From contig RFKQ01000045.1 of assembly GCA_003694635.1 (NCBI GenBank), forward strand, positions 1-35,947: DNA of 35,947 nt, given 5' to 3'. This DNA is from Planctomycetota bacterium. Lineage in GTDB: Bacteria; Planctomycetota; J132. The notes under the pieces are model-generated. The model was not told the DNA's origin. It made no database searches and was given only the letters and a program-made list of their open reading frames with translations. Positions 5,619 to 33,042 of the stretch are shown here, in pieces (within the stretch, counting starts at the first letter, position 1; every line of letters starts with the position of its first letter). The position numbers and the translations under genes are program-made.

Positions 5619-8600
5619 TTACCTCACAAGCTCAATAGAATACGTAAACTTCGTCTTCTTCTTATCCTCCCGTACAATCTCTATCGTCTCCCTACGCGGA
5701 AAAACCCAATTGAACTTGCTCTTGCTCCAATAGGAAATAAAATCCGGCTTCGTGGTCCGGTATTTCCCCAAAATATCATCCCCTCCCCGTGGCCACCCGT
5801 CTTGATCGCAAACCCAAACCTCAATCACATCCCCATATTTCCACTGAAACCGAATGCTGTGGTTCCACTTGGGATACCAACTATCTGTGATAACAGGGGT
5901 GCGCCCCACTTCCTTTCCATTGATCTTAAAAATAATGTAGCCGTCCGGTTTTTCGTTCTGAATATCCGGTAGATCCCCCTCATGAAAAGTGATAATGTAG
6001 GTTTTGGGAGTAAGGATGCGCTTGTAGAAATTTACATCGATACGCAACTCCGTAGTTCGCTTTCCCTGAGGGAACAATTTTAAATATCGCTGCGCCAGTT
6101 GAAAGCACTTGGGGATATCGTTCTGATCCAAGTGCAGACGATAAAACCAGTAGAGAATTTCCGACTGATAGAGGCGAATTCGCTGCTTTTGCTGCAAAAG
6201 CCGCTTTTCCAAAGAAGGATCAGGGCTTTTTTTTAGCCAAAAAGAAATATACTTATCCACCCTCTCTTGCAAAGATTGAGCCCTCGAAAGCCTGATTTGA
6301 AACTGGGCCACCTGGACCACACTGGAGATGGTTTTCATAAACTTTTGAGAGTCTTCCTCAAAATCTTTCAGTGCCCTGAATAACTCTCTCCGCTCTTTTT
6401 GCTTGGCCGAGCTATAAAAATCCTGAACTCTTTTAAAAATTTCTGGATAAGATCCTCCGGATAGAGAAGAAAATTTCTTCTCCAAACGTCCCAACTTCTG
6501 GTACAAATCCAAATGGGGATTTTGCACAAGCTCCTCCAACTCCAATAAGCGATCCAACCGCTGCTTCTGCTCTTTCGCCTTTTCTACCAACGGAGATTTG
6601 GGATTGGAGGTAATAAACGACAAAAGTGCTTTTTGATAACCCTTAAGCTTGGCCAAATCCCTTCCCTCATAAACCGGCAATGAACGAAAAAGCCGCTCTT
6701 GCAACCGCTGAATCTGGGAAGAAGCCTTCTCTTCAAACGGTTTTAAATTCGAAAATGTAGAATCCACCGCCATCAGCTGCCGAATCTGATGGCGCAAATC
6801 CTCTAACATATCAATACTAGACTGAATTTTCAACACACTCTTGGCCTGCTTTTCAAGAGCTTGGAGAAAGTTGGAAAAAAACGTCTGAAAAATAGGATAA
6901 ATCCTAGAAAAAAACTCTGGCCTCGCCCTCAAAATCTGCCAAAGCTCCCGCTGAATTTGGCGCAACTTGACCACATTTCCTTTCGCCTGAGCTAGGCTAT
7001 GCTTAAGCAAAGTAAGAGACTTTTGAACATTTTTCTCCTGAATGCGCTGCTCCAAACTTAACCGGACAGAACGAATCAAAGAAAGCAAGGACGCCTTCTC
7101 CAACGACTGAGAATAGGAATTCTCCACCGCCACCAATTGGTTATAAAACTGCTGAGAAGCGGTGTTGGCCTCTAAACGACGTAAAAATTTTTGCACCTTT
7201 AATCGAAGTTTGTATTTTAAATCCCCATCTGCATAAGCAATGTACAACGCCAACGGCTCCATCGATTTGGCCAAATCCTCCAAGCTCTGAAACTTAGCAA
7301 ATCGTTGCAAAAACTCCTGAAGTATGCCATTGGCCAAATATACAATTTTTTTCTGAACATAGGCAACATGAGCCGAACAGCGCTTCTTGCCGCTAAGATA
7401 GGATTTGTAAAGCTGGAAAATCCTCCGCTTATCCTTTTCTCTCTTTGCAAGAAACTCGATCCGTCTCAAATCCTCCTGACAAATCTTTAACTCTATCTCC
7501 AAAATGGCTTTGGCAACCTCTGAAGAATAGGGGCAGTTCTTGTGCTGAAGCTTGTGCGCCTTCCACCTCCTCAATACCTCCAACATACCATTCGGAGACG
7601 AGGTTTTGGAAAAAAGGCGAATCCTCCAATACTCCTTATCCTGAAGCCTGCGCCTCCAATCATGGAGCTTTCTTTGCAACCGATCAGCATAGATAAAATC
7701 ACCAAAATACTTCCCTATCTTCTTAAAATTGCGATATACCTCCAAATAACGCTCTGGATACTGCTGGAATTTCTTCTCCAACTCCAATGCCTGTTGAAAC
7801 ACAATCTTTTGCGCCTGAATTTTTAGATCCTCTAACCTCTGGATGAGCGATTTGGAGAGGAAAGAATAAGTTAGATAACTCTGCGCCCTTTGGTAAACAA
7901 GAAAAGGATTTTCCCGAATGTTTTCTTTTGACCAATCCAAAAAATTTTGGATCTCCCGCTGCCGCCCCCTCTCCGCCTTCGCATAAATCCCCATCACAAA
8001 AGAATGAAGCGGAAAATAAACCGAAAACCGCTCCGCACTCCGATAACAACGCTGAGCAAACTCACCCCCCACGTTTCTCTCCAGCATCTTCAACAACCGC
8101 CTCCCTTCCCATACCCCCCAAAGAAGATACAAAAAACAAATCCCAAGAAAAAACAACCCAACCCATTTCATCCGCTTCCGAGCACGCAAAACCGCCTGCT
8201 GCTGCAACTTCTCAAACAGAAAAAAAAGCGGCTCCTCCACCTTGTACGGAGCAATGGTTGCCACCAAACGCCAACGCTGACCCTCCGACTCCTCCCGCTG
8301 AGCGTTCCCATTGCCTACAGCAGAAACCGCAAAAATCGAACCGTAATCCTTGACGTGATGCTGGAGATACTTGTGAATGCGCCCTAGACGATCCTGGACA
8401 AAATCCTCCAACTTCTCCCAAATCTGAGGATTGGAATCCGCCTTGGTCACAGCCACCGCTACCGGCGGCGGCAAAACACGAGCGCCCGAGGCCGCCCTCT
8501 CAATCGCCCGCTCAAAAAGCGCCAAATCATCCTGATAACGCTTCAAATCCGAGGAATTTAAATCATCCGCCGCCGCCAATAATAAATACGCATCCGCCTG

Positions 8601-8945
8601 AAGAAAATACGCCTCAATCTCCTTTGTGCGCTCGTTTTGCACGTGCGAATCCAACCACTCCCTTAAGTCAGATCCCCGAAAATCTTTGGTATAAACCGAA
8701 AAACTCTTCCCCTCCTTCTCATGAAAAAGCTCAAAAAATAACGGCTTACTCTCCAACGTCGCCGGAGGAAATTCCTTCTGCTCTAGACGAAGTATATTCT
8801 CCCGATAAAAACGACTGGTGTTTAAATCCGGACGAAGTACCCACTCAGAATGATGATAAAAATAATGCATCAAAGCCGTCAAATACGTGGTCTTCCCACT
8901 CCCACTTGGACCCACAATGGCTATGGAAAACCGCTTTTTCCACAT
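5619..8945 (-). CDS. Large GTPase-TM-coiled-coil protein with C-terminal C2 domain
   Basis: A 1108-residue protein I cannot place in a named family. The N-terminus is a P-loop GTPase: GPSGSGKTT (12-20), DFRG (88-91, G3-like), TKAD (167-170, G4). One strong hydrophobic segment follows (about 260-280). About 690 residues of charged, helical, coiled-coil or repeat-like sequence come next. Residues 979-1065 look like a C2 domain: PDGYIIFKINGKEVGRTP, WYPKWN, then VCDQDG and GGDD. The acidic positions that bind calcium in classical C2 domains appear filled (Asp991/994, 1001, 1047, 1049, 1056). The closest known idea is the double-GTPase/TRAFAC-like class used in bacterial conflict and membrane systems. 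TssM has a comparable GTPase-TM-large domain topology but different details. The gene starts 19 bases after serA and is probably co-transcribed with it. Confidence 0.75.
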   Translation of the reverse strand: MWKKRFSIAIVGPSGSGKTTYLTALMHYFYHHSEWVLRPDLNTSRFYRENILRLEQKEFPPATLESKPLFFELFHEKEGKSFSVYTKDFRGSDLREWLDSHVQNERTKEIEAYFLQADAYLLLAAADDLNSSDLKRYQDDLALFERAIERAASGARVLPPPVAVAVTKADSNPQIWEKLEDFVQDRLGRIHKYLQHHVKDYGSIFAVSAVGNGNAQREESEGQRWRLVATIAPYKVEEPLFFLFEKLQQQAVLRARKRMKWVGLFFLGICFLYLLWGVWEGRRLLKMLERNVGGEFAQRCYRSAERFSVYFPLHSFVMGIYAKAERGRQREIQNFLDWSKENIRENPFLVYQRAQSYLTYSFLSKSLIQRLEDLKIQAQKIVFQQALELEKKFQQYPERYLEVYRNFKKIGKYFGDFIYADRLQRKLHDWRRRLQDKEYWRIRLFSKTSSPNGMLEVLRRWKAHKLQHKNCPYSSEVAKAILEIELKICQEDLRRIEFLAKREKDKRRIFQLYKSYLSGKKRCSAHVAYVQKKIVYLANGILQEFLQRFAKFQSLEDLAKSMEPLALYIAYADGDLKYKLRLKVQKFLRRLEANTASQQFYNQLVAVENSYSQSLEKASLLSLIRSVRLSLEQRIQEKNVQKSLTLLKHSLAQAKGNVVKLRQIQRELWQILRARPEFFSRIYPIFQTFFSNFLQALEKQAKSVLKIQSSIDMLEDLRHQIRQLMAVDSTFSNLKPFEEKASSQIQRLQERLFRSLPVYEGRDLAKLKGYQKALLSFITSNPKSPLVEKAKEQKQRLDRLLELEELVQNPHLDLYQKLGRLEKKFSSLSGGSYPEIFKRVQDFYSSAKQKERRELFRALKDFEEDSQKFMKTISSVVQVAQFQIRLSRAQSLQERVDKYISFWLKKSPDPSLEKRLLQQKQRIRLYQSEILYWFYRLHLDQNDIPKCFQLAQRYLKLFPQGKRTTELRIDVNFYKRILTPKTYIITFHEGDLPDIQNEKPDGYIIFKINGKEVGRTPVITDSWYPKWNHSIRFQWKYGDVIEVWVCDQDGWPRGGDDILGKYRTTKPDFISYWSKSKFNWVFPRRETIEIVREDKKKTKFTYSIELVR

Positions 8946-10771: not shown

Positions 10772-12637
10772 TTACCCGCCCGGCGAAGCCGGCGCATAAA
10801 GACTCCGATGAAGACGATAATAACGCCCCCTGCGCCTCAACAACGTCTGGTGATCCCCCACCTCCTCTACCCGACCTCGATGAAGAACAACAATCTTATC
10901 CGCCCCCTGAATCGTACTCAATCGATGCGCAATCACAATACTCGTTCTCCTACGCAGCAACCTCCCCAATGCCCGCTGAATCAACCGCTCCGTCGGCGTG
11001 TCAATCAGCGACGTAGCTTCGTCCAAAACCAAAATTGCCGGCTCCACTACCAACGCCCGCGCAAAACTCAACAACTGCCTCTGACCCGCACTAAGCGTCC
11101 GCGCCCCCTCCTCCAAAAAATGATTATACCCACCCGGCAAACGCTCAATAAACTCATCCACAAATATCTCCCGACAAACCCTCCGTACCCTCTCAAACGA
11201 AACCGCCGAATCTCCCAAACAAATATTGTCCAAAATGGTGCCCCGAAATAAAAAAACATCCTGAGGAACCACCGCAATATACCTCCGCCATCGCTCAGGC
11301 GAAATCCGATCCAAATCCACCCCCCCTACCTCTATCCGCCCCCTTGTAGGAAGATAAAATTTTAACAATAACTGAATCAACGTGCTCTTCCCTGCCCCAG
11401 TATGTCCCACCACCGCTACCGTCTCCCCCGGCCGGATGGTAAACGAAATATCCTCTAACGCATAACCCTCCCCACCATAAGTAAACCAAACTCCCTGAAA
11501 ACAAATCTCCGAAGAAAGAATTCTATCCCGCCCCCAGCTGCCTACCTCCTCAGAAACCCTCTCCAACACAGGATCCGGGCTCGCATCAAAAACCCTAAAA
11601 ATCCGCTCACAAGAAGCCATCGCCGACTGCAAAAGATTGTACTTCTCCGCCAAATAACGAATGGGCTCATAATAATAACCAAGCAACCAAATCAATGTGC
11701 TCAACGTAGCAATATCCAACTCCCTTTGGGTAATATAAAAATGCCCAAAATAAAGCAACAACGCCAAACTAAGCCCCTCCAAAAACTGCACCGTGGGAGC
11801 GTAAAAAGCCCGCACCCGAACACTCTGAAGATAGCTCCGCTTCAAATCCTCGTTGAGAGCGCAAAAACTCCGCTTCTGCCACTCCTGCTTGTTGCACAAC
11901 TGAATCAAAGACATGCCAGCGATATTCTCCGCCATAAAAGCGTTAAACTCAGAAATACGCTGGCGCAACTGCCGATAAGCCCTCCGAGCAAAATAACGAA
12001 ACACCCAACTCACCAACACCACCAACGGCAGAATCCCAAGAGCTATTGCCCCTAACCTCCACGAAAGATACGGAATCGCCACCGAAATCGCCACCACCGT
12101 AAAAATATGACGAAAAAGATCTATCAATCCAAGACTGACAAACTCCTGAATCGATTGAACATCATTGCTCACCCGCGTAACCAACCGCCCCACCGGATTT
12201 CGATGAAAATACGAAATAGGCAAGCGAAGCATGTGCTCAAAAAGCTTGGTGCGAAGCAAATAAATCACCTTCTGACCAAAATACTGCAAAATAAACTGCT
12301 GCCCCACACTCAACAAAAAAATCAAAACGGAAACCACAAAAAAAAGTACACCTAACCCCAGCAAATGACTCCCCCCATGAAAAAACGACTGCCCAAATAA
12401 ACCCCATAACCACTCCAAAAACCCACTCTCCAAACGCCGCTGCTGAGCTAAATCCGCCACCACCCAACCCTGCACCACAACGTAAAGAATGCGCAAAGCC
12501 GCAATCATTACCCCCAAAATCCCCCCAAAAATAGCAAAAAAAAGATACGGACGCAAAAACGGATAAAGCCTGCGAAGCAAAGGAAGATCCACCGCCCTTT
12601 CCCGTATCTCATCCGAGTGAAAATAACTATCCGACAT
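10772..12637 (-). CDS. ABC exporter half-transporter, catalytic-type subunit
   Basis: The ORF track extends to 12775, but the ATG at 12637 has a good ribosome site (GAGGGAGG) and gives a normal 621-residue exporter starting MSDSYFHSDE. An N-terminal six-helix membrane domain is followed by the nucleotide-binding domain: Walker A GHTGAGKST, signature LSAGQRQ (Gly to Ala against LSGGQ), Walker B ILVLDEATS with the catalytic Glu, and H-loop IVIAHRLSTI. This half overlaps the end of the upstream half-transporter gene by 11 bases, suggesting translational coupling and a heterodimer of the TM287/288 or TmrAB kind. Substrate unknown: lipid, peptide or drug are all possible. Confidence 0.92.
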   Translation of the reverse strand: MSDSYFHSDEIRERAVDLPLLRRLYPFLRPYLFFAIFGGILGVMIAALRILYVVVQGWVVADLAQQRRLESGFLEWLWGLFGQSFFHGGSHLLGLGVLFFVVSVLIFLLSVGQQFILQYFGQKVIYLLRTKLFEHMLRLPISYFHRNPVGRLVTRVSNDVQSIQEFVSLGLIDLFRHIFTVVAISVAIPYLSWRLGAIALGILPLVVLVSWVFRYFARRAYRQLRQRISEFNAFMAENIAGMSLIQLCNKQEWQKRSFCALNEDLKRSYLQSVRVRAFYAPTVQFLEGLSLALLLYFGHFYITQRELDIATLSTLIWLLGYYYEPIRYLAEKYNLLQSAMASCERIFRVFDASPDPVLERVSEEVGSWGRDRILSSEICFQGVWFTYGGEGYALEDISFTIRPGETVAVVGHTGAGKSTLIQLLLKFYLPTRGRIEVGGVDLDRISPERWRRYIAVVPQDVFLFRGTILDNICLGDSAVSFERVRRVCREIFVDEFIERLPGGYNHFLEEGARTLSAGQRQLLSFARALVVEPAILVLDEATSLIDTPTERLIQRALGRLLRRRTSIVIAHRLSTIQGADKIVVLHRGRVEEVGDHQTLLRRRGRYYRLHRSLYAPASPGG

Positions 12638-14447
12638 CCGGGCCTCCCTCAATACACTGCAGCAACTGCTGCTGGCGATAAGTGTGAGCGTACCAACCGC
12701 CTCGCCGTAAAAGCTGATCGTGGGTGCCCTGCTCAAGAATTTGACCACCCTCCAAAACCACAATCCAATCCGCATCCTGAACCGTATGCAAACGATGCGT
12801 GCTCACAAGAATAGTAGGACGAGGACAAAGGGTCCGTAAATTGGCCAAAATCCTCCGCTCCGTCTGTGGATCCACCGCACAAAGACAGTCATCCAGCACA
12901 AGAATAGGCGGAGACATGGCCAACGTCCGAGCAAGCGCTAAGCGCTGCTTCTGACCACCCGAAAGATTGACCCCCTTCTCCCCTAAACGCGTCCGGTATC
13001 GCTCAGGTAGAGCCTCAATCTCCTCATGAATGCAAGCAAGCCTAGCCGCCCGCTCCACCACCCCAAAATCAACACCTTCCAAACCAAACGCAATATTCTC
13101 CTCCACCGTCATGGAAAAAAGAAAGGTCTCCTGAGGCATATAACCTATACTCCTACGCAACTGAGCAAGAGAAAGCTCCTCCACAGAAAAACCATCCACC
13201 CGAATCTCCCCCTCCTGAACAGAATAAAGCCGAAGAAGCAACCGCATTAACGTGGATTTCCCACTCCCCGTCGCCCCCACCAAAGCAACCGTCTGACCAG
13301 GCTCTACCCTCAACGTGATATTCTCTAACGCAGAATGAGAACTTTGAGGATAAGTAAAACAAACCCCAGAAAAGTCAATTTTTCCACGCAAAGAAACCAC
13401 AGAAACCGAAGATTCCAAAGAAAATGACGAAGGATGACCCAAAACCCCCTTTAACCTCCCCAAACTAGCCATACCCTTCTGATACATGGACATGGTCCAA
13501 CCCAACGCAATCGCAGGCCAAGTCAACAGCCACATGGCGTAAATAAATCCCACCAACTCCCCAGAACTCATCTCCCCCTGCTGCACAAATTGCCCACCTA
13601 TCCAGAGAACCAATAAACTCTGAAGAGAGACCACAAAAGCCATAAACGGCCAAAAAAGAGACTGGTACTTGGCCAAATCCAAATTGTAGCGCAAATAGTC
13701 CTGATTCTCCCGATGAAATCGCTGGATTTCCTGAGGCTCTCGCAAAAAGTTTTTGATTACCCCAATCCCGCTAAAGGTCTCCTGAGCATGAGCACTAATC
13801 ACAGCCAATTGCTGCTGAACTTTCTTGAAATGAAAATGAATCTTCCGAGAAATGTACAAAACCACAAAAGGAAGAAACGGAAGCGTCAACGCTAAATAAA
13901 AAGTTAACTCTACATTCCACGAAATCAACAAAAAAAGAACAAAACAAAAATAGCACAACGTGTCCACAAATAAAAGGAAACCAGCCCCCATCATCATGCG
14001 CACAGCGTCCACATCGTTAGAAGCTAGAGAAAGAAGCTCACCCGTTTGTGCCTTGGTGTAAAAATCCGTATCTAACTCCAAAAGCTTATAATAGTACCGA
14101 CGCCGAATGTCCCGCGCAATGTACTCCTGGGCAAAAAAGAAACATATCCGCCAAAGATAACGCAAAATCCACTGTAAAAAAATCGCACCTAGAAAAATCC
14201 ATAAAATCACGCCAATCTCACCACCACTAAACCTCCGCAAAGTGGTGGCCAATACCCCCGAAGACGGCAACCCCTGAAGAGTGTCTATAGTAATGGAGAT
14301 CAAGAGAGGCGGAATAAGCTCCAAAACATCCACCAATATAAGCACCAAAATGCCAAAAAAATAGCGGACTTTGTAGGCCCTCAGAAAAGGAAGAATGTCC
14401 ACCAAACTGGCCGAGTCCGGCGAAACCGACGAAGAAGACGAGTTCAT
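12627..14447 (-). CDS. ABC exporter half-transporter, degenerate-site subunit
   Basis: I start at the ATG at 14447 (606 residues, MNSSSSSVSPDSA); the track uses a TTG five codons upstream and either is possible. A six-helix membrane domain precedes the nucleotide-binding domain: Walker A GATGSGKST, signature LSGGQKQR, Walker B ILVLDDCLCAVD and H-loop ILVSTHRLHT. The catalytic Glu after Walker B is Asp, the mark of the non-hydrolysing site in heterodimeric exporters. That site is completed by the partner's signature, which is the altered LSAGQ, so the two changes fit one composite degenerate site. It is the first gene of a two-gene operon. Confidence 0.92.
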   Translation of the reverse strand: MNSSSSSVSPDSASLVDILPFLRAYKVRYFFGILVLILVDVLELIPPLLISITIDTLQGLPSSGVLATTLRRFSGGEIGVILWIFLGAIFLQWILRYLWRICFFFAQEYIARDIRRRYYYKLLELDTDFYTKAQTGELLSLASNDVDAVRMMMGAGFLLFVDTLCYFCFVLFLLISWNVELTFYLALTLPFLPFVVLYISRKIHFHFKKVQQQLAVISAHAQETFSGIGVIKNFLREPQEIQRFHRENQDYLRYNLDLAKYQSLFWPFMAFVVSLQSLLVLWIGGQFVQQGEMSSGELVGFIYAMWLLTWPAIALGWTMSMYQKGMASLGRLKGVLGHPSSFSLESSVSVVSLRGKIDFSGVCFTYPQSSHSALENITLRVEPGQTVALVGATGSGKSTLMRLLLRLYSVQEGEIRVDGFSVEELSLAQLRRSIGYMPQETFLFSMTVEENIAFGLEGVDFGVVERAARLACIHEEIEALPERYRTRLGEKGVNLSGGQKQRLALARTLAMSPPILVLDDCLCAVDPQTERRILANLRTLCPRPTILVSTHRLHTVQDADWIVVLEGGQILEQGTHDQLLRRGGWYAHTYRQQQLLQCIEGGPDVG

Positions 14448-14499
14448 ATCTTTTCTGCGCAAAATAACAACTTAAGAATCGCACCCCAAAAAAAAAAGT

Positions 14500-24467: not shown

Positions 24468-27239
24468 ATGAAAAAAAACCTCTACTCGTTTCTAGCTGAA
24501 TTCGCCATCCGCTACAAAAAACAAATCCTAATCACCACCCTCCTACTCTCCCTCCTACCCCTGAGCCTACTCCCCTCCCTAGAGCTTCGCACCGACTACG
24601 CGGAGCTCATTCGCCAAGAAGCACCCTACCAAAAAAAATTTAACCAATACCTCAAGAGCTTCGGAGCCTCAGAAGCTCTCTTTGTTATCATCCGCTCCCC
24701 CTACGCCCGAGAGATAGCCCAAACCGCCAATGACCTCCTACTCCAACTCAAAGATAAAAACAATCGCCCCCTTGTGCGCCGAGTGCTCTTCAAAATAAAT
24801 AAAAAATTTATGTACAAATACGGAATACTCTTCGCCAACCAAAAAGAATTCCAAGAAAGCATAGAAAACGCCACCTTCCTTGCCTACCTCCAAACAGCCA
24901 CCAATCTAGCCGAGTTTCTCTCCTCCATCACCCTTGCCATGGATGAGGCTAGCCGCCACCTTAACCTAAACTCCTCACCCTCCGACCTCATCTTCATCGA
25001 ACAGCTCCTTCAAGGCATACAAAACGCCTTAGTAAAGAAAAAAGTAGACCTCCCCCCTATCCTAAAACGCCATCAAAAATCCGTCTTCAAAGAAATCGAC
25101 CCCGACGGCTACTTCGTCCTCCCCAACCATCAACTTATGATCCTCATGCAGGTGTTCCCAGAAACCACAAGCGACGATTACCAAAAACTAAAAATCTTTC
25201 TCAATGGCGTAAAAAAATGCTTCCAACAAGCCGCCCAAAACTATCCTAATACCAAAATCTTCTACACCGGCAGCCCCCAGCTCACCGTGGATGAAATGGA
25301 AGACTCCTCCCGCGATATCCAACGTCTCACCCTCTTCTCCATCCTAGGCGTAGGCCTAATCTTCACCCTTTTCTTCGGCCGCTTCATCTGGCCTATCCTC
25401 TCCATCCTAGTGCTAGGAATCGCCATCCTCTGGACCTTCGGCTTGGCCGTCATCCTCTTCGGATATCTCAACATTGTCTCCGTCGTCTTTGCCGCCGTTC
25501 TCATCGGATTAGGAATAGACTTCGGCATCCATATCATCGAAAGATACTCCGAATCCATCTGCAGCAGCGCAGAAATCACCCCCCACAAAGCCGCCAAAGA
25601 AGCCGTTGTCAAAACAGGCATCGCCATCACCACAAGCGCACTCACCACCTCCGCAGCCTTTTTTATAAGCGCCTTCTCCGGATTTAAAGGCTCCTTCCAA
25701 CTGGGAATCCTTGGCGGATTGGGAATCTTAATCTGCCTCGCTTTCATGGTCACTCTCCTCCCCGGAATACTGGTCTGGATCGACCAAAAACGCCCCCTAC
25801 CGAAAGTCCACCCAGAATGCAAAACCTCCCGCATCATCCACCTCGTTCTACGCCTACTGAAATACCCAAAAACCGTAATCGCCCTCACCATGCTCGCCGT
25901 CTTCCTCTCCAGCTTCAGCGTCTTTTCCACCCAATTTGATACCAACCTCCTCAACCTTCAAAGAAAAAACTCCCAAGCCAAACTCCTCGAAGAAACCCTT
26001 ATCGAGGACTACGGTATCTCCGCTAGATTCGCTATCCTCCTAAAATCTTACCCCTCCCTAACCCAAAAAGAACACAACCTCAAAGCCAAAGAAGCCCTGG
26101 AACAAATCCGAACCCTCGTGGAAAAACTCAAATCCCTCCCCAGCGTCAACCCCTCCAAAGTGGAAGCCATCACCAATCTCCTCCCTCCCGAAAAAGTACA
26201 GGAAAAACGCCTCCAAATTCTCCTCCACTCCCCAAAACTACAACGATTCCGCCAGCTCTACCCCACCCTCCAATCCCAACCACCAAAACCTATCTCCCCC
26301 CAACCTCCTAGCCGAAAAAATCTAATCCAAGCCCTGGAAAAACTCCAAGAAAAAATCGAAGACCTCCAAGAAAAAACCTTCGGAAAAGAAGAAAACTGGA
26401 CCGTCTTCTTCGAAAAAATTATTCAAAAAATCGACAACCTCCTCCAACTTCTCTCGAAAACAAACTATGAAAAAAAACACCTCCTCCAATATCAACACCT
26501 AATCCTACACAATTTCCGGGAAAATGCCAAAATCCTTCCCGCCCTCTATAAACCTCAAAAACTAACCCTTAAAGATATTCCCCCAGAACTCAAAACCTAC
26601 TTTATCTCCCCCAATGGACTATGCGCCATCTATGTCTACCCCAAAGAAAATATCCGTATCCAAAAAAATCTCGAAAACTTTATCCAAGAACTCCGCTCCG
26701 TCGACCCTCACATCACAGGCCCTTCCGTCCAAACCTATGAAGTGCTCAAAGAAATGAAAGAAGGATACCAAAAAGCCGGCCTAATCGCCGTCTGCGTCGT
26801 CTTTCTTATCCTTCTGCTAGAATTTCGCAACCTCTGGATCGCTTCCCTCGCCATCTCCCCCCTAATCTTCGGCTCCCTCCTCATGCTCGGATGTATGTAC
26901 CTCCTCAACGTCCACTTTAACCCCGCTAACCTCATGGCTCTCCCCCTCCTCTTCGGCGTCGGCATCGATAACTCCATCCATATCCTACATCGATTCTATC
27001 GAGAAAAAGAATATAACCTGCCCACCATTCTCCACTTCACCGGCAAAGCTATCCTCATCACCTCCCTCACCACCATCGTCGGCTTTGGTAGCTTCCTCCT
27101 CGCCAGCCACCAAGGCCTCAAAAGTCTCGGGATCATCATGAGTATCGGTATTCTCTGCTGCCTATTCACCAGTCTTGTGCTCCTCCCATGTATGCTAAAA
27201 CTCCTTTCTAAACAAGGTAAAACCCATGACGACCCCTAA
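24468..27239 (+). CDS. MMPL/RND-family exporter (HpnN-like)
   Basis: A 923-residue protein with the duplicated RND layout: one N-terminal helix (about 18-38), a large soluble domain, a helix bundle, then the same again. The first bundle has GLGIDFGIHIIERY and the second FGVGIDNSIHILHRFYRE, the sterol-sensing/MMPL helix-4 motifs with the conserved Asp. RTDYAELIRQEAPYQKKFNQ after the first helix is the MMPL/HpnN front pattern. Such proteins move lipids or hydrophobic compounds across the inner membrane with proton energy. HpnN exports hopanoids, but no squalene-hopene cyclase is here. The gene overlaps the next one by 14 bases. No clear ribosome site at the ATG; the 262-base gap upstream shows nothing certain. 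Confidence 0.88.
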   Translation: MKKNLYSFLAEFAIRYKKQILITTLLLSLLPLSLLPSLELRTDYAELIRQEAPYQKKFNQYLKSFGASEALFVIIRSPYAREIAQTANDLLLQLKDKNNRPLVRRVLFKINKKFMYKYGILFANQKEFQESIENATFLAYLQTATNLAEFLSSITLAMDEASRHLNLNSSPSDLIFIEQLLQGIQNALVKKKVDLPPILKRHQKSVFKEIDPDGYFVLPNHQLMILMQVFPETTSDDYQKLKIFLNGVKKCFQQAAQNYPNTKIFYTGSPQLTVDEMEDSSRDIQRLTLFSILGVGLIFTLFFGRFIWPILSILVLGIAILWTFGLAVILFGYLNIVSVVFAAVLIGLGIDFGIHIIERYSESICSSAEITPHKAAKEAVVKTGIAITTSALTTSAAFFISAFSGFKGSFQLGILGGLGILICLAFMVTLLPGILVWIDQKRPLPKVHPECKTSRIIHLVLRLLKYPKTVIALTMLAVFLSSFSVFSTQFDTNLLNLQRKNSQAKLLEETLIEDYGISARFAILLKSYPSLTQKEHNLKAKEALEQIRTLVEKLKSLPSVNPSKVEAITNLLPPEKVQEKRLQILLHSPKLQRFRQLYPTLQSQPPKPISPQPPSRKNLIQALEKLQEKIEDLQEKTFGKEENWTVFFEKIIQKIDNLLQLLSKTNYEKKHLLQYQHLILHNFRENAKILPALYKPQKLTLKDIPPELKTYFISPNGLCAIYVYPKENIRIQKNLENFIQELRSVDPHITGPSVQTYEVLKEMKEGYQKAGLIAVCVVFLILLLEFRNLWIASLAISPLIFGSLLMLGCMYLLNVHFNPANLMALPLLFGVGIDNSIHILHRFYREKEYNLPTILHFTGKAILITSLTTIVGFGSFLLASHQGLKSLGIIMSIGILCCLFTSLVLLPCMLKLLSKQGKTHDDP

Positions 27240-28697: not shown

Positions 28698-30260
28698 CTA
28701 CAGTAAACTAATCTTGCCTAACCACCGATCTAAATGAGCTACCGCATTAAGCAACCTCTCCAAATCCCTATCGCAAATGGGACGATTGTGGGCCACTTTA
28801 TTGCGAACGCGATTGAGAACAGTAAGATAGACCTTAAATTGGTCCTGAGAACCAATGATCTTCTTAAAAATATTCCTCCAATTCTTTACGATAATATTCT
28901 CCAAATCCTTCAAAGTAGCATAGCAAATCAAAGGATCATCACAATCCTCCAGCGTATTGTCCTCCTCTTCCCGCCTCTTGCGCAAAACCAATACCTCTCC
29001 CAACTCCCTCTCCGTCCTGCCCCTCCAACGCTCCGGCTCCGTATACACCCCCGCCAATCCCCGCCTCGCCCACTCCTCCCCATACTCGCTGTAGAGCTGG
29101 CTGACCACAAAATTGCGCAGACGATTCTCCACCTGATTGATAATCCCATAGCAAAATTGATTGGAAGCCAACATAAACTGGCCTACCAATAAATCCTTGG
29201 GCGCTACATCACAAACCTGAGAAAAGTGCCGCCTTAAAAGTGGATCTTTGCGCAAAAATAACTCGTAAATTCCATTGCGTAAGCATACCTTCCGATCCGG
29301 ACCTAACCGCAAAACTCCAAGCACAATCAACTCTTCCAAAAATCGCTGAGGCGCCATCAAACTAAGCTGGACCACCTCCCCCAATAAAATTCGCCCCAAA
29401 GCTCTTAAATCCTGCGGAGAAGCCTGAAGAATCCGCTGGCGAATCGCCTTTAAATGAAAGTCCCCCTCCTCAATAAACTCCTCCACAGCTCGATCAATCT
29501 GCCGAAACTGAACCTCACTTGGATGCTTGCTCCAAATGATGCGAAAAAGATTCTGACAAAAATAAGGATGACCACCGGTCTTCTCGTAAATGTAACGCGC
29601 ACCAATATCATGAATAGAACAACCATGTTTCTGAAAGTAAACCTTGGCAAACTCCACCGTCTGATCCTCACTAAAGTCCGATAAATGTATCTTGGAAGCC
29701 GCATTGGAAAACGGCGAAGTCCTCTCAGGATCTAAATTCTTCCATAAAATCGCGCCACCTAGCACAAAAAACATTTGCTTTAAATAAGGGTATTGATCGC
29801 GATAAGTATGAAGCTGCCGTATAAGAGAAACAAATTCTTTTTGCCTAGAGAAAGAAAGATTTTGAAAGTCGTCCAAAAAGAAAATAAAATTTTTTGAACA
29901 CCCCCTCAACACCTCCTCAAAAAGAAAAGATAACCCCTGACTCTCCAATCGCCTAAACTTCTCAAGGCGCCGATGAACATACTTCACCGGCCTAAGCTGC
30001 TGAGAAATCTCTAACGCCAACAACACAAACAAAGAATCATTCCAACTGGAAACATTGATCAACAAAGGAACGTACTGCTGGTAGTCCGGCAAGCTCTTTA
30101 AATACAAAATACACTGCCTAAAAAAAACACTTAACCCACTCTGCAACGGCGCTGAAACAATGACATACTCCAAACGCCTCAAACAAAGCTCCAGTTGAAG
30201 GATTTCCTTCTCGCGCCAAACTTCCCAAATTCCATCTCGCTCAATCACTCGACTCTTCAT
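28698..30260 (-). CDS. ATPase-like protein with C-terminal HEPN (Swt1-type) putative RNase
   Basis: I use the ATG at 30260 (520 residues) with GAGAGG seven bases upstream; the track's GTG is five codons earlier. The N-terminal half is a STAND/AAA-like P-loop domain in which Walker A is degraded (SAPLQSGLS, 36-44, Leu where Lys is required) while Walker B FIFFLDDF (125-132) and the TGGHP motif (228-232) remain. A winged-helix-like part follows (about 275-345). Residues ~375-515 resemble the Swt1-type HEPN domain: VENRLRNFVVSQLY, NWRNIFKKIIG, then RVRNKVAHNRP with the R-x4-H catalytic pair Arg486/His491. HEPN proteins of this kind cut RNA in conflict systems. It follows the double ATPase gene by 19 bases. 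Confidence 0.75.
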   Translation of the reverse strand: MKSRVIERDGIWEVWREKEILQLELCLRRLEYVIVSAPLQSGLSVFFRQCILYLKSLPDYQQYVPLLINVSSWNDSLFVLLALEISQQLRPVKYVHRRLEKFRRLESQGLSFLFEEVLRGCSKNFIFFLDDFQNLSFSRQKEFVSLIRQLHTYRDQYPYLKQMFFVLGGAILWKNLDPERTSPFSNAASKIHLSDFSEDQTVEFAKVYFQKHGCSIHDIGARYIYEKTGGHPYFCQNLFRIIWSKHPSEVQFRQIDRAVEEFIEEGDFHLKAIRQRILQASPQDLRALGRILLGEVVQLSLMAPQRFLEELIVLGVLRLGPDRKVCLRNGIYELFLRKDPLLRRHFSQVCDVAPKDLLVGQFMLASNQFCYGIINQVENRLRNFVVSQLYSEYGEEWARRGLAGVYTEPERWRGRTERELGEVLVLRKRREEEDNTLEDCDDPLICYATLKDLENIIVKNWRNIFKKIIGSQDQFKVYLTVLNRVRNKVAHNRPICDRDLERLLNAVAHLDRWLGKISLL

Positions 30261-30279
30261 CAAAACGCCTCTCACTCTC

Positions 30280-33042
30280 CTAACCAGTGCACCGCTTCCT
30301 CATAACTTCTCCATAGTAAGGATTGCTCAAACGATAACGCCTTCCCATCTTTTTCAAAATTCCTAAAAAAAACAACTCCTCTAACCCCTTTTCCACCTGC
30401 AGCAAGGGAAGGTGGATAGAAATATCTTGGGATGTAAATTTTTCTTTGGAAAGAGATAGAATCGCCTGAAGAAGACACTTTTTCCCCTCGTCCAATCCCC
30501 CCTCATACAGACAAATCAACGCCTCGTGAAAATCTTCCAAGTGGCTTACTTGCTCAATATCCTCCTCCAAAACCACCCTTCTACCTCCCCCTTTAAGACG
30601 CCTTTGAATAAGAGCTATCAGCTTCTCTAAAAGAGCTGGATTCCTACCCGTATACTCCAACAACAGCTCCAGAAGACTCTTATCTTCCAACTCCAAGCCC
30701 CTCTGTTTGATGAAATGAAAAGCCAACACCTTCGCCTCCCTCTCATCTAACGGAGTTAAATGAAGAATCTCCATATCCAAAAGAGGCAAAAGCCCAATCC
30801 CCCCCGTAAGAATAACGCGAAACCCTTCACTAAGCTCCGCAGACAGCTGCTCAAAAGCCTCCAAAACTCTCTCCGCCTGCGACCGCTTCCTCAGAAATAC
30901 CCCCTCCACATCGTCCATAAGCACCAACACCCGCCGGCCATGGCAAAAACTCTCGGCAACAAACTCCTTTAAAACCTCCAACCCCTCCTCCAACGTAGAA
31001 CTCTTGATATGAAAATTCGTCAAAATTCCCTGAAGAAGGTCCTCAAGACCCCTCATCGCCTTGGCCTGGACATAAGCCATTTTGTAGCTTAAATCCATAC
31101 CATAGATCTCTTTTAGCGTCGCTAACATAGAGCTCTTACCCACCCCATTTCCCCCTAAAATCGCATAATTCTGCCCAGAATCCTTGAGAATTTGCTCAAT
31201 CTCCCTCCGCCTAAGAATAAATATCTCCGACTCCTCCTCCGCAACAACATCGTTCCTCTTCCTCTTCAAAAGCTTCTGAGCTTCCTCCACCAACTGCAAA
31301 AGAATATCCGCCAAATTCTCCCTCTCCCTCAAAATACGCGGATAAATGGAGTTGGTAAATCTATAATACTTCTCCTCTTTTTTTAATACACTCGTCATCG
31401 TCAGCTTCCTCAATTCACTTCTAAGCTGAAACGGCTCCATCTCTAGCTCCAATGACTTCAAAGATTCCATCAACTGGAGCTCCGTAAACGAATCCCAGTC
31501 TTCAAAAATAATATGACATACCAACAGCTTGGGCAAAATATCCCCCTGCTCCTCTCCCTCCCGAAAGTTATCCAAGTGATTCCCTACCACCAAATCCCGA
31601 TACGCCTCACTGCGATACACATCCTCCACATCCTCCTCCTGAATATAACGCCGATTCTCCGAAGCAATCTTCTCGATCAAACACTTGCAATAGTGCTGGA
31701 CAAAACAAGGATGCCCCGCTGTATACTCATAGATTTTATCCACTATTTTCTTTTTTGCCAGAAAGCGAATCCCCAAACGATGGCACATAGGCTCTTCAAT
31801 AAGACGTCGACAGTCTTTCTTGCTCAACTCCTTAAGCTCAAAAGGCTCCGCAAAATTCCGAAAGGGAGCATAAAGGCGGTAAAATTCAGAATAAAGTTTC
31901 TTAAAACCCGCAAAAAAGAAACGACATCTACTCTTGAAATCATTGTGGATATTGCGAAGAGACACAAATATCTTACTCGCAGACCTCCGATCAATATCCA
32001 CCAAATCGTCCACCTCATCGATAAAAACCGTCACCCTATCCGGCCTAGAACGCAAATAGTCGCGCAACCTCTGCTCAAAATCCTCCACCGTCTCCACCTC
32101 AGCTGAGTCCACCCCCAGCTGCTTTAAAATCTCCCTTCCTAAAAATAAGTTGTTCTTTACCCCCTCGCAAGTGATAAACACCGTCTTCTGCCCCGATTCC
32201 TCATTCAAAATTTCCTGAATCTTCTTTAAAAGCGAAGTTTTCCCCATCTGACGTCCGCCATAAATCGCATAGCTGATAGCCTGATCATTCATCATCAAAT
32301 CAATGGCCTTCTTTCTACCAAAAAACATCAAGCTAGACGTGCTCCCATGAGTGCGATAAGGCTGTATGTCAAGCAAATCCAACTGCTCTGTGATCGCCTG
32401 GTTAAACGCAATCGGGGTCTTGCTCGCTAACAAAATGTTTTTAAGATTTCTAAGGTGCAAAACCACAAAACGATAACGACTCTCCTTGGTAAGATGAATA
32501 AAATCCTCCGTATTGTACATTGTCAAAATAAACGCCACTTTCCGAAAATACTCCTGAGGACCACTCTCTATCAGATTGACAAACTGCTGAAGCTCCTGAG
32601 AGGGAGCGTCACCTTTGGAGTAAAAGAAAAATAAATTCCCTTTCAAACACTCCAAAAACGGATTGATCAACTGGATATACGCCACCTCCTCTTTCATCAC
32701 CCGATTTATCCGAAAATCCCCAAACTCCCCCAACGCCCCCAAAAAACCAGAAAGGCTTCCCTCTTTTTGCTTTTTTCCTTGCGCTGTATGAAGTAAACTT
32801 TTATAATATTTAATAAGCTGAAGAATCTTCGACCAACGGTTGGCGTTGATCTCCAAAACCTGAAAAAATGTCTTAGTATTGGACCTTTTTTCAAAAACCC
32901 GATACACCTTTTCTAAAGTGATCAAGTTCAATTGCTCCCGAATAAACTCCCTGGAAACGCTTCTCTTCTTCCCTACCGCAGTGCAACGTATCATCTCTAC
33001 CAATCTACGCACCTCTTCGTCAGAAACATTCTCAAATTTCAT
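30280..33042 (-). CDS. Double P-loop STAND/AAA-like ATPase
   Basis: A 920-residue protein. Residues 1-90 are a helical N-terminal module that could be an effector-associated or adaptor domain (inference). Residues 90-235 are helical and unknown. First ATPase: Walker A GGRQMGKTS (262-270), Walker B VTVFIDEVD (337-345), TAGHP (441-445), then winged helix (about 500-575). Second ATPase: Walker A GGNGVGKSS (630-638), Walker B VLVLMDDVE (705-713), TGRNP (798-802), then winged helix (850-915). Both sites look intact. The GxP motif and winged helix place it near STAND/AAA ATPases used as sensors or switches. It starts at an ATG after AGGGAG and is followed by the HEPN-bearing gene in one operon. Confidence 0.8.
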   Translation of the reverse strand: MKFENVSDEEVRRLVEMIRCTAVGKKRSVSREFIREQLNLITLEKVYRVFEKRSNTKTFFQVLEINANRWSKILQLIKYYKSLLHTAQGKKQKEGSLSGFLGALGEFGDFRINRVMKEEVAYIQLINPFLECLKGNLFFFYSKGDAPSQELQQFVNLIESGPQEYFRKVAFILTMYNTEDFIHLTKESRYRFVVLHLRNLKNILLASKTPIAFNQAITEQLDLLDIQPYRTHGSTSSLMFFGRKKAIDLMMNDQAISYAIYGGRQMGKTSLLKKIQEILNEESGQKTVFITCEGVKNNLFLGREILKQLGVDSAEVETVEDFEQRLRDYLRSRPDRVTVFIDEVDDLVDIDRRSASKIFVSLRNIHNDFKSRCRFFFAGFKKLYSEFYRLYAPFRNFAEPFELKELSKKDCRRLIEEPMCHRLGIRFLAKKKIVDKIYEYTAGHPCFVQHYCKCLIEKIASENRRYIQEEDVEDVYRSEAYRDLVVGNHLDNFREGEEQGDILPKLLVCHIIFEDWDSFTELQLMESLKSLELEMEPFQLRSELRKLTMTSVLKKEEKYYRFTNSIYPRILRERENLADILLQLVEEAQKLLKRKRNDVVAEEESEIFILRRREIEQILKDSGQNYAILGGNGVGKSSMLATLKEIYGMDLSYKMAYVQAKAMRGLEDLLQGILTNFHIKSSTLEEGLEVLKEFVAESFCHGRRVLVLMDDVEGVFLRKRSQAERVLEAFEQLSAELSEGFRVILTGGIGLLPLLDMEILHLTPLDEREAKVLAFHFIKQRGLELEDKSLLELLLEYTGRNPALLEKLIALIQRRLKGGGRRVVLEEDIEQVSHLEDFHEALICLYEGGLDEGKKCLLQAILSLSKEKFTSQDISIHLPLLQVEKGLEELFFLGILKKMGRRYRLSNPYYGEVMRKRCTG

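Follow-up and report, generated by a model that had tools for sequence, protein, structure and literature searches.

A planctomycete DO-GTPase with a membrane helix, a helical-repeat rod and a terminal C2 domain, and relatives encoded beside MlaE-type lipid transport genes

What role might a bacterial GTPase play when its far end is a C2 domain? The question is raised by P0001, a gene on contig RFKQ01000045.1 of a Planctomycetota bacterium (assembly GCA_003694635.1), in an analysed stretch of DNA (the window) of 35,947 nucleotides. An earlier note, made from the sequence alone, described the product as a GTPase of no recognised name with a single membrane segment, about 700 coiled-coil-like residues and a calcium-type C2 domain that would lie outside the inner membrane if the helix spans it, and proposed that it tethers or remodels membranes at the expense of GTP. 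The open frame and both of its end domains are real: the DO-GTPase and C2 matches each exceed their Pfam cut-offs, and the plus strand of the same segment is riddled with stops. The order of GTPase, transmembrane (TM) helix, rod and C2 (Table 1) can be stated with near certainty. The function that we favor, with a probability of roughly 0.4, is that of a GTP-controlled, periplasm-facing, membrane-docking arm of Mla-type lipid transport.

Table 1. Features of P0001 and the gene directly upstream, in window coordinates
Feature	Residues	Coordinates	Strand	Basis
P0001, DO-GTPase - TM - helical rod - C2 protein, 1108 aa		5619..8945	minus	single open frame
DO-GTPase domain	8-243	8217..8924	minus	PF19993/PF19975 above cut-off; AF2 blocks mostly pLDDT 70-88
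G1 / Walker A, GPSGSGKT	12-19	8889..8912	minus	GKT invariant in family alignment
G3, DFRG	88-91	8673..8684	minus	D and G invariant in family alignment
G4, TKAD	167-170	8436..8447	minus	K and D invariant in family alignment
Single membrane helix (predicted)	261-279	8109..8165	minus	hydropathy (KD 1.98) and charge bias
Helical rod (predicted)	about 285-955	6081..8093	minus	AF2 all-helical, moderate to low confidence
C2 domain	about 972-1070	5736..6032	minus	Pfam C2 above cut-off, independent profile, low-confidence model
Putative calcium loop 1	D994...D1001	5943..5966	minus	sequence
Putative calcium loop 3	D1047-x-D1049...D1056/D1057	5775..5807	minus	sequence
serA (phosphoglycerate dehydrogenase), directly upstream of P0001		8965..10551	minus	TIGR01327, 591 bits vs cut-off 454

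The N-terminal domain does have a recognised name, falling within the DO-GTPase (double-GTPase) families (PMC7159879). Residues 8-194 match Pfam DO-GTPase2 (PF19993; E 1.4e-8, 35.1 bits against a cut-off of 27), and DO-GTPase1 (PF19975) matches nearly as well (E 2.4e-8, 34 bits against 27). The P-loop motifs that were originally picked out by eye (G1, G3 and G4) are intact, with key residues invariant in the family, and a G5-like SAVG lies at residue 208. DO-GTPase families have been described with a glutamate in the Walker B region (PMC7159879); P0001 has DFRG-S where several relatives have D(Y/F)xGE, the alignment column of the glutamate meant in that description being uncertain. P0001 is the sole above-cut-off DO-GTPase2 in its genome, which holds one further weak match below the cut-off.

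When the modelled GTPase (AF2) is compared with solved structures, the nearest folds among the matches listed are the Ras, Rab and Rag/Gtr GTPases. Dynamin is absent both from the Pfam matches of P0001 at E up to 1 and from the structure matches listed; the remodelling of membranes that had been suggested is not supported. P0001 resembles DO-GTPase1/2 (PF19975, PF19993; PMC7159879) in its profile, its Walker A, G3 and G4 motifs and its proximity to the membrane, and its kin in one relative (G050) share the tandem paralogues of these families. In contrast to these families, it adds a long rod and a C2 domain and has no zinc ribbons by Pfam. C2 domains go unmentioned in the main text of the DO-GTPase paper (PMC7159879). 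The GTPase family is known and named, and neither its C2-tipped rod form nor a link of such GTPases to MlaE was found in the open-library literature.

The middle of P0001 is rich in leucine and charged residues. AF2 breaks these ~670 residues into about 30 helices of 4-58 residues each, with short loops between them, so the term "coiled coil" is better replaced by "helical-repeat rod"; an array of short helices is, on this model, more likely than one continuous coiled coil. The rods of sibling proteins range from 186 to 671 residues in length, and FL..YP.S motifs resembling those of TPR or BamD proteins occur in these siblings. Eight such motifs are seen against a shuffle mean of 1.4, and none of 1000 shuffles reaches eight.

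The C-terminal module matches Pfam C2 (PF00168) at residues 992-1064 (E 9.1e-8, 32.7 bits against a cut-off of 22), in agreement with the C2 pattern recognised earlier. A profile built from non-GTPase C2 domains alone gives it 20.0 bits, compared with 4.7 for the best of 200 shuffles. AF2 does not resolve the C2 within the full-length protein; modelled separately, it has an all-beta core at low confidence (mean pLDDT 42, pTM 0.37). Every one of the best 50 solved matches to this separate model is a C2 domain or a protein that contains one (best E 1.6e-3); MCTP2, Munc13, perforin and extended synaptotagmin are among them. phmmer searches of PDB chains yield nothing significant for the P0001 C2 alone, with the MCTP2 C2 at an E of 0.35, or for the whole protein. 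The structure comparison agrees with a C2 fold, an eight-stranded beta sandwich, in its matches but not in the confidence of the model, and because the models are weak, the assignment is based on the profiles together with the consistency of the C2 structure matches. By profile scan, this is the sole C2 found in the host genome, whose assembly is 67% complete, and 14 well-known control genomes gave none.

The architecture recurs. Among 392 genomes of the phylum, scanned with the C2 and DO-GTPase2 profiles and then followed up, the same order is found in G122, G376, G088 and G050 (as a tandem pair in the last), all Planctomycetota. Two further genomes, G281 and G268, show the order with a less secure C2 assignment. 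When scored with the independent C2 profile, three of eight family C2 calls do not exceed shuffles. P0001 alone, used as a query against named genomes, returned no relative. The full-length family alignment is too diverse for a pattern search, and a pattern was instead drawn from the GTPase-domain alignment of closer relatives; it matches on Planctomycetota contigs in the GTDB collection.

It is the gene neighborhoods of these relatives that point to lipid transport. Directly upstream of the GTPase-C2 gene in G088 and G050 lies a gene fusing ABC_tran and MlaE domains, both above their Pfam cut-offs, and the gene after the GTPase encodes a weak MCE-like stretch behind a TM segment (E about 1e-4 among 25 sequences), so that relatives share operons with components of Mla/MCE systems. 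Inspection of 60 ABC-MlaE matches shows a GTPase-type gene immediately downstream of the match, on the same strand and -1 to 34 bp away, at five loci in four genomes (two in G088, the others in G050, G106 and G070). This count used a GTPase profile rebuilt from confirmed DO-GTPases, an earlier iterative profile having also matched ABC transporters. The naive chance that five of about 14 loci are adjacent is about 2e-12, or about 9e-5 if only two events are independent, both being rough values calculated for four adjacent slots among 4000 genes; even on the second value, coincidence is a very unlikely explanation. C2 domains themselves are tied to the same machinery in G010 (contig C100; loci L081 and L195), where the gene for a 316-aa fusion of MCE (MlaD, PF02470) and C2 (L195 5519-6469), both domains above Pfam cut-offs, immediately follows that of an ABC-MlaE fusion.

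The link is uneven across the family. Scored with the independent profile, the C-termini of the MlaE-linked GTPases of G106 and G070 do not exceed shuffles, and no C2 is recognisable there. At the loci seen in the C2-bearing siblings G122, G281, G268 and G376 there is no MlaE neighbor. The host of P0001 has an ABC-MlaE fusion gene on another contig, with no GTPase neighbor. P0001 is not linked to MlaE or MlaD in this 67% complete assembly and stands alone behind serA, and its proposed lipid role is therefore carried over by homology. No paper combining MlaE, a GTPase and "MCE protein" was found in the open library. The operon links in relatives suggest a so far undescribed tie between a GTP switch and inter-membrane lipid traffic, and we hold a role for the family in Mla-type lipid transport to be a possibility that falls just short of an even chance.

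At 60 loci (L137-L196), from many Planctomycetota, the MlaF-type ATPase and MlaE permease apparently form one polypeptide of about 500-600 aa. These fusions often follow a 400-450 aa protein that has a TM segment at its N-terminus and an MCE-like look.

Other fusions in the phylum bear on a different role, in which the C2 and rod would respond on the outside to a ligand or to stress of the envelope or its lipids, and signal inward through the DO-GTPase, with defence against invaders (biological conflict) as one use. Kinase-TM-C2 proteins (L007, L087) and relatives in which the GTPase-TM-rod unit follows a Ser/Thr kinase (L009, L010, L011) would signal likewise. It has been proposed that DO-GTPases switch conflict systems in the vicinity of the membrane (PMC7159879), and PspF operons, a membrane-stress context, have been noted to include a DO-GTPase (PMC11237479). 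However, P0001 has no effector domain within it or directly beside it, the MlaE neighbors of its relatives point to transport, and the GAP1-N2 partner that one class of DO-GTPase conflict systems would have is absent from the genomes searched. Unlike GAP1-N2-type DO-GTPase systems, the 12 genomes with family or strong DO-GTPase2 matches, host included, yielded no GAP1-N2 gene (PF20013) in a search limited to that family, which matched C. glutamicum as its positive control. A sensor of this kind is conceivable, with the odds against it at about two to one.

Several other genes were noted around these GTPases. Those flanking the GTPases of L105 (2710-4389, 8536-10809), L106 (1564-3339, 9598-11412), L010 (11928-14051) and L011 (3-2465) seemingly have in common an N-terminal domain with a W...GR pattern, and a TM segment. 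This N-terminal domain matches no Pfam family and may represent a diverged, GAP1-N-like partner for the DO-GTPase. Multi-TM ABC transporters with an N-terminus that looks FHA-like by eye adjoin other DO-GTPase genes (L010 3663-5978, L071 5554-7809). C2 candidates at the C-terminus of the kinase-GTPase fusions scored no higher than shuffles and were discarded.

Judged by sequence, P0001 carries all five acidic positions of a calcium-type C2 (D994, D1001, D1047, D1049 and D1056/57), and the apparently complete site reported earlier is upheld; because the loops are intact, docking by P0001 could be calcium-assisted. In most sibling C2 domains the acidic loops are degenerate, so calcium control would be particular to P0001, and calcium dependence finds no support as a trait of the family. 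The same degeneracy is what might be expected of a mainly structural protein, in which the rod and C2 serve as a fixed spacer or protein-docking module, the C2 binds protein rather than lipid, and the GTPase controls only assembly. Many eukaryotic C2 domains indeed bind no calcium and act as protein modules. The full acidic set of P0001 and the fusion of C2 to MCE, a lipid-handling domain, both argue otherwise, and we consider a mainly structural role improbable.

P0001 has one hydrophobic segment, as first described, with a basic cluster, RARKRMK (254-260), just before it. The N-side flank holds six K/R and no D/E, and the C-side flank four K/R and two D/E. The N-side flank is the more basic in all 18 family proteins checked, which predicts that the GTPase is cytoplasmic and the C2 lies beyond the inner membrane. 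In G106, G070 and G050, relatives possess an extra TM segment at the N-terminus, so that the GTPase is bracketed by helices; a fourth relative, from G088, also has an N-terminal helix, its second helix being weaker. A signal-like or TM segment likewise stands at the start of many other C2 proteins in the phylum, some of which pair C2 with MCE or with an M48 peptidase (L089 in G314 and L094 in G349, both with a signal-like N-terminus), suggesting that C2 domains are used outside the cytoplasm here. This appears to be the reverse of the usual place of eukaryotic C2 domains, which is the cytosol. Taken together, these features make it very probable that the C2 of P0001 lies outside the inner membrane, as had been supposed. 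That the hydrophobic segment fails to cross the membrane or the C2 stays cytoplasmic, with a cytosolic GTPase-C2 then working at the cytoplasmic side of the inner membrane, would suit the cytosolic habit of classical C2 domains and the predicted nature of the topology, but is most improbable given the uniform charge bias, the relatives with N-terminal TM segments and the C2 domains fused to MCE or found in signal-bearing proteins.

As a GTP-controlled arm of Mla-type lipid transport, the reading that we prefer, P0001 would be an inner-membrane DO-GTPase whose single helix carries the helical-repeat rod and C2 into the periplasm. GTP binding or hydrolysis in the cytoplasm would alter the state of the rod, either its assembly or its reach, and the altered rod would allow the C2 tip to dock on, or release, a lipid surface, which may be that of the outer membrane or the periplasmic side of the inner one. 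Because the relatives' GTPase lies in Mla/MCE-type operons, we propose a GTP-gated role, as a tether or a gate, in lipid transfer between the two membranes. The tethering half of the earlier proposal is plausible and acquires a lipid-transport context from the MlaE/MCE neighbors of relatives, whereas its remodelling half is unsupported. The most specific version, in which the calcium-type C2 tip of P0001 docks on the outer membrane in a GTP-driven manner and gates MlaE/MCE transfer, is unlikely.

P0001 would work like the extended synaptotagmins and tricalbins without being a member of them, since it too has a membrane anchor, a long linker and a C2 tip. In both cases this tip may bind a second membrane so that lipid can be transferred. 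P0001 differs in being bacterial, in its added GTPase, in showing no SMP domain and in a C2 that is predicted to face the periplasm. Nor is it any of the Mla subunits MlaE, MlaF or MlaD. With the elongated transenvelope MlaD of Veillonella it shares the proposed part of a lipid-conveying bridge that is anchored in the inner membrane and reaches the outer one, but the Veillonella protein consists of an MCE domain and an outer-membrane barrel, with no GTPase or C2 (PMC10665443). The way in which lipids travel across the periplasm is still unsettled, and the MlaD of PVC bacteria, planctomycetes among them, is without the outer-membrane barrel with which the envelope is bridged in other bacteria (PMC10665443). 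In the most specific and unlikely version, proteins such as P0001 could do this bridging job in planctomycetes and would amount to a bacterial equivalent of membrane contact sites based on C2 domains. If the preferred reading is true, they would offer a bacterial parallel to such sites, and one group of DO-GTPases, hitherto proposed as conflict-system switches, would gain a testable housekeeping role. To our knowledge, a protein of this kind would also be the first GTP-controlled part of Mla/MCE-type lipid transport.

In the window itself, only 19 bp separate the serA stop codon from the P0001 start, with a purine-rich AGAAGGG upstream of the start, so the two genes probably share one transcript. 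Upstream of serA, on the minus strand, two overlapping MsbA/SmdAB-type ABC exporters (10772-14462) probably form a heterodimer; as a lipid link for P0001 these MsbA-type genes were set aside because serA intervenes and no relative shows such an arrangement. Farther along are an MMPL/sterol-sensing-like RND transporter of 923 aa (24468-27239, plus strand) and, at 28698-33042 on the minus strand, adjacent genes for an AAA/STAND NTPase (920 aa) and an AAA_35/Swt1-like HEPN protein (525 aa), a probable defence or conflict pair.
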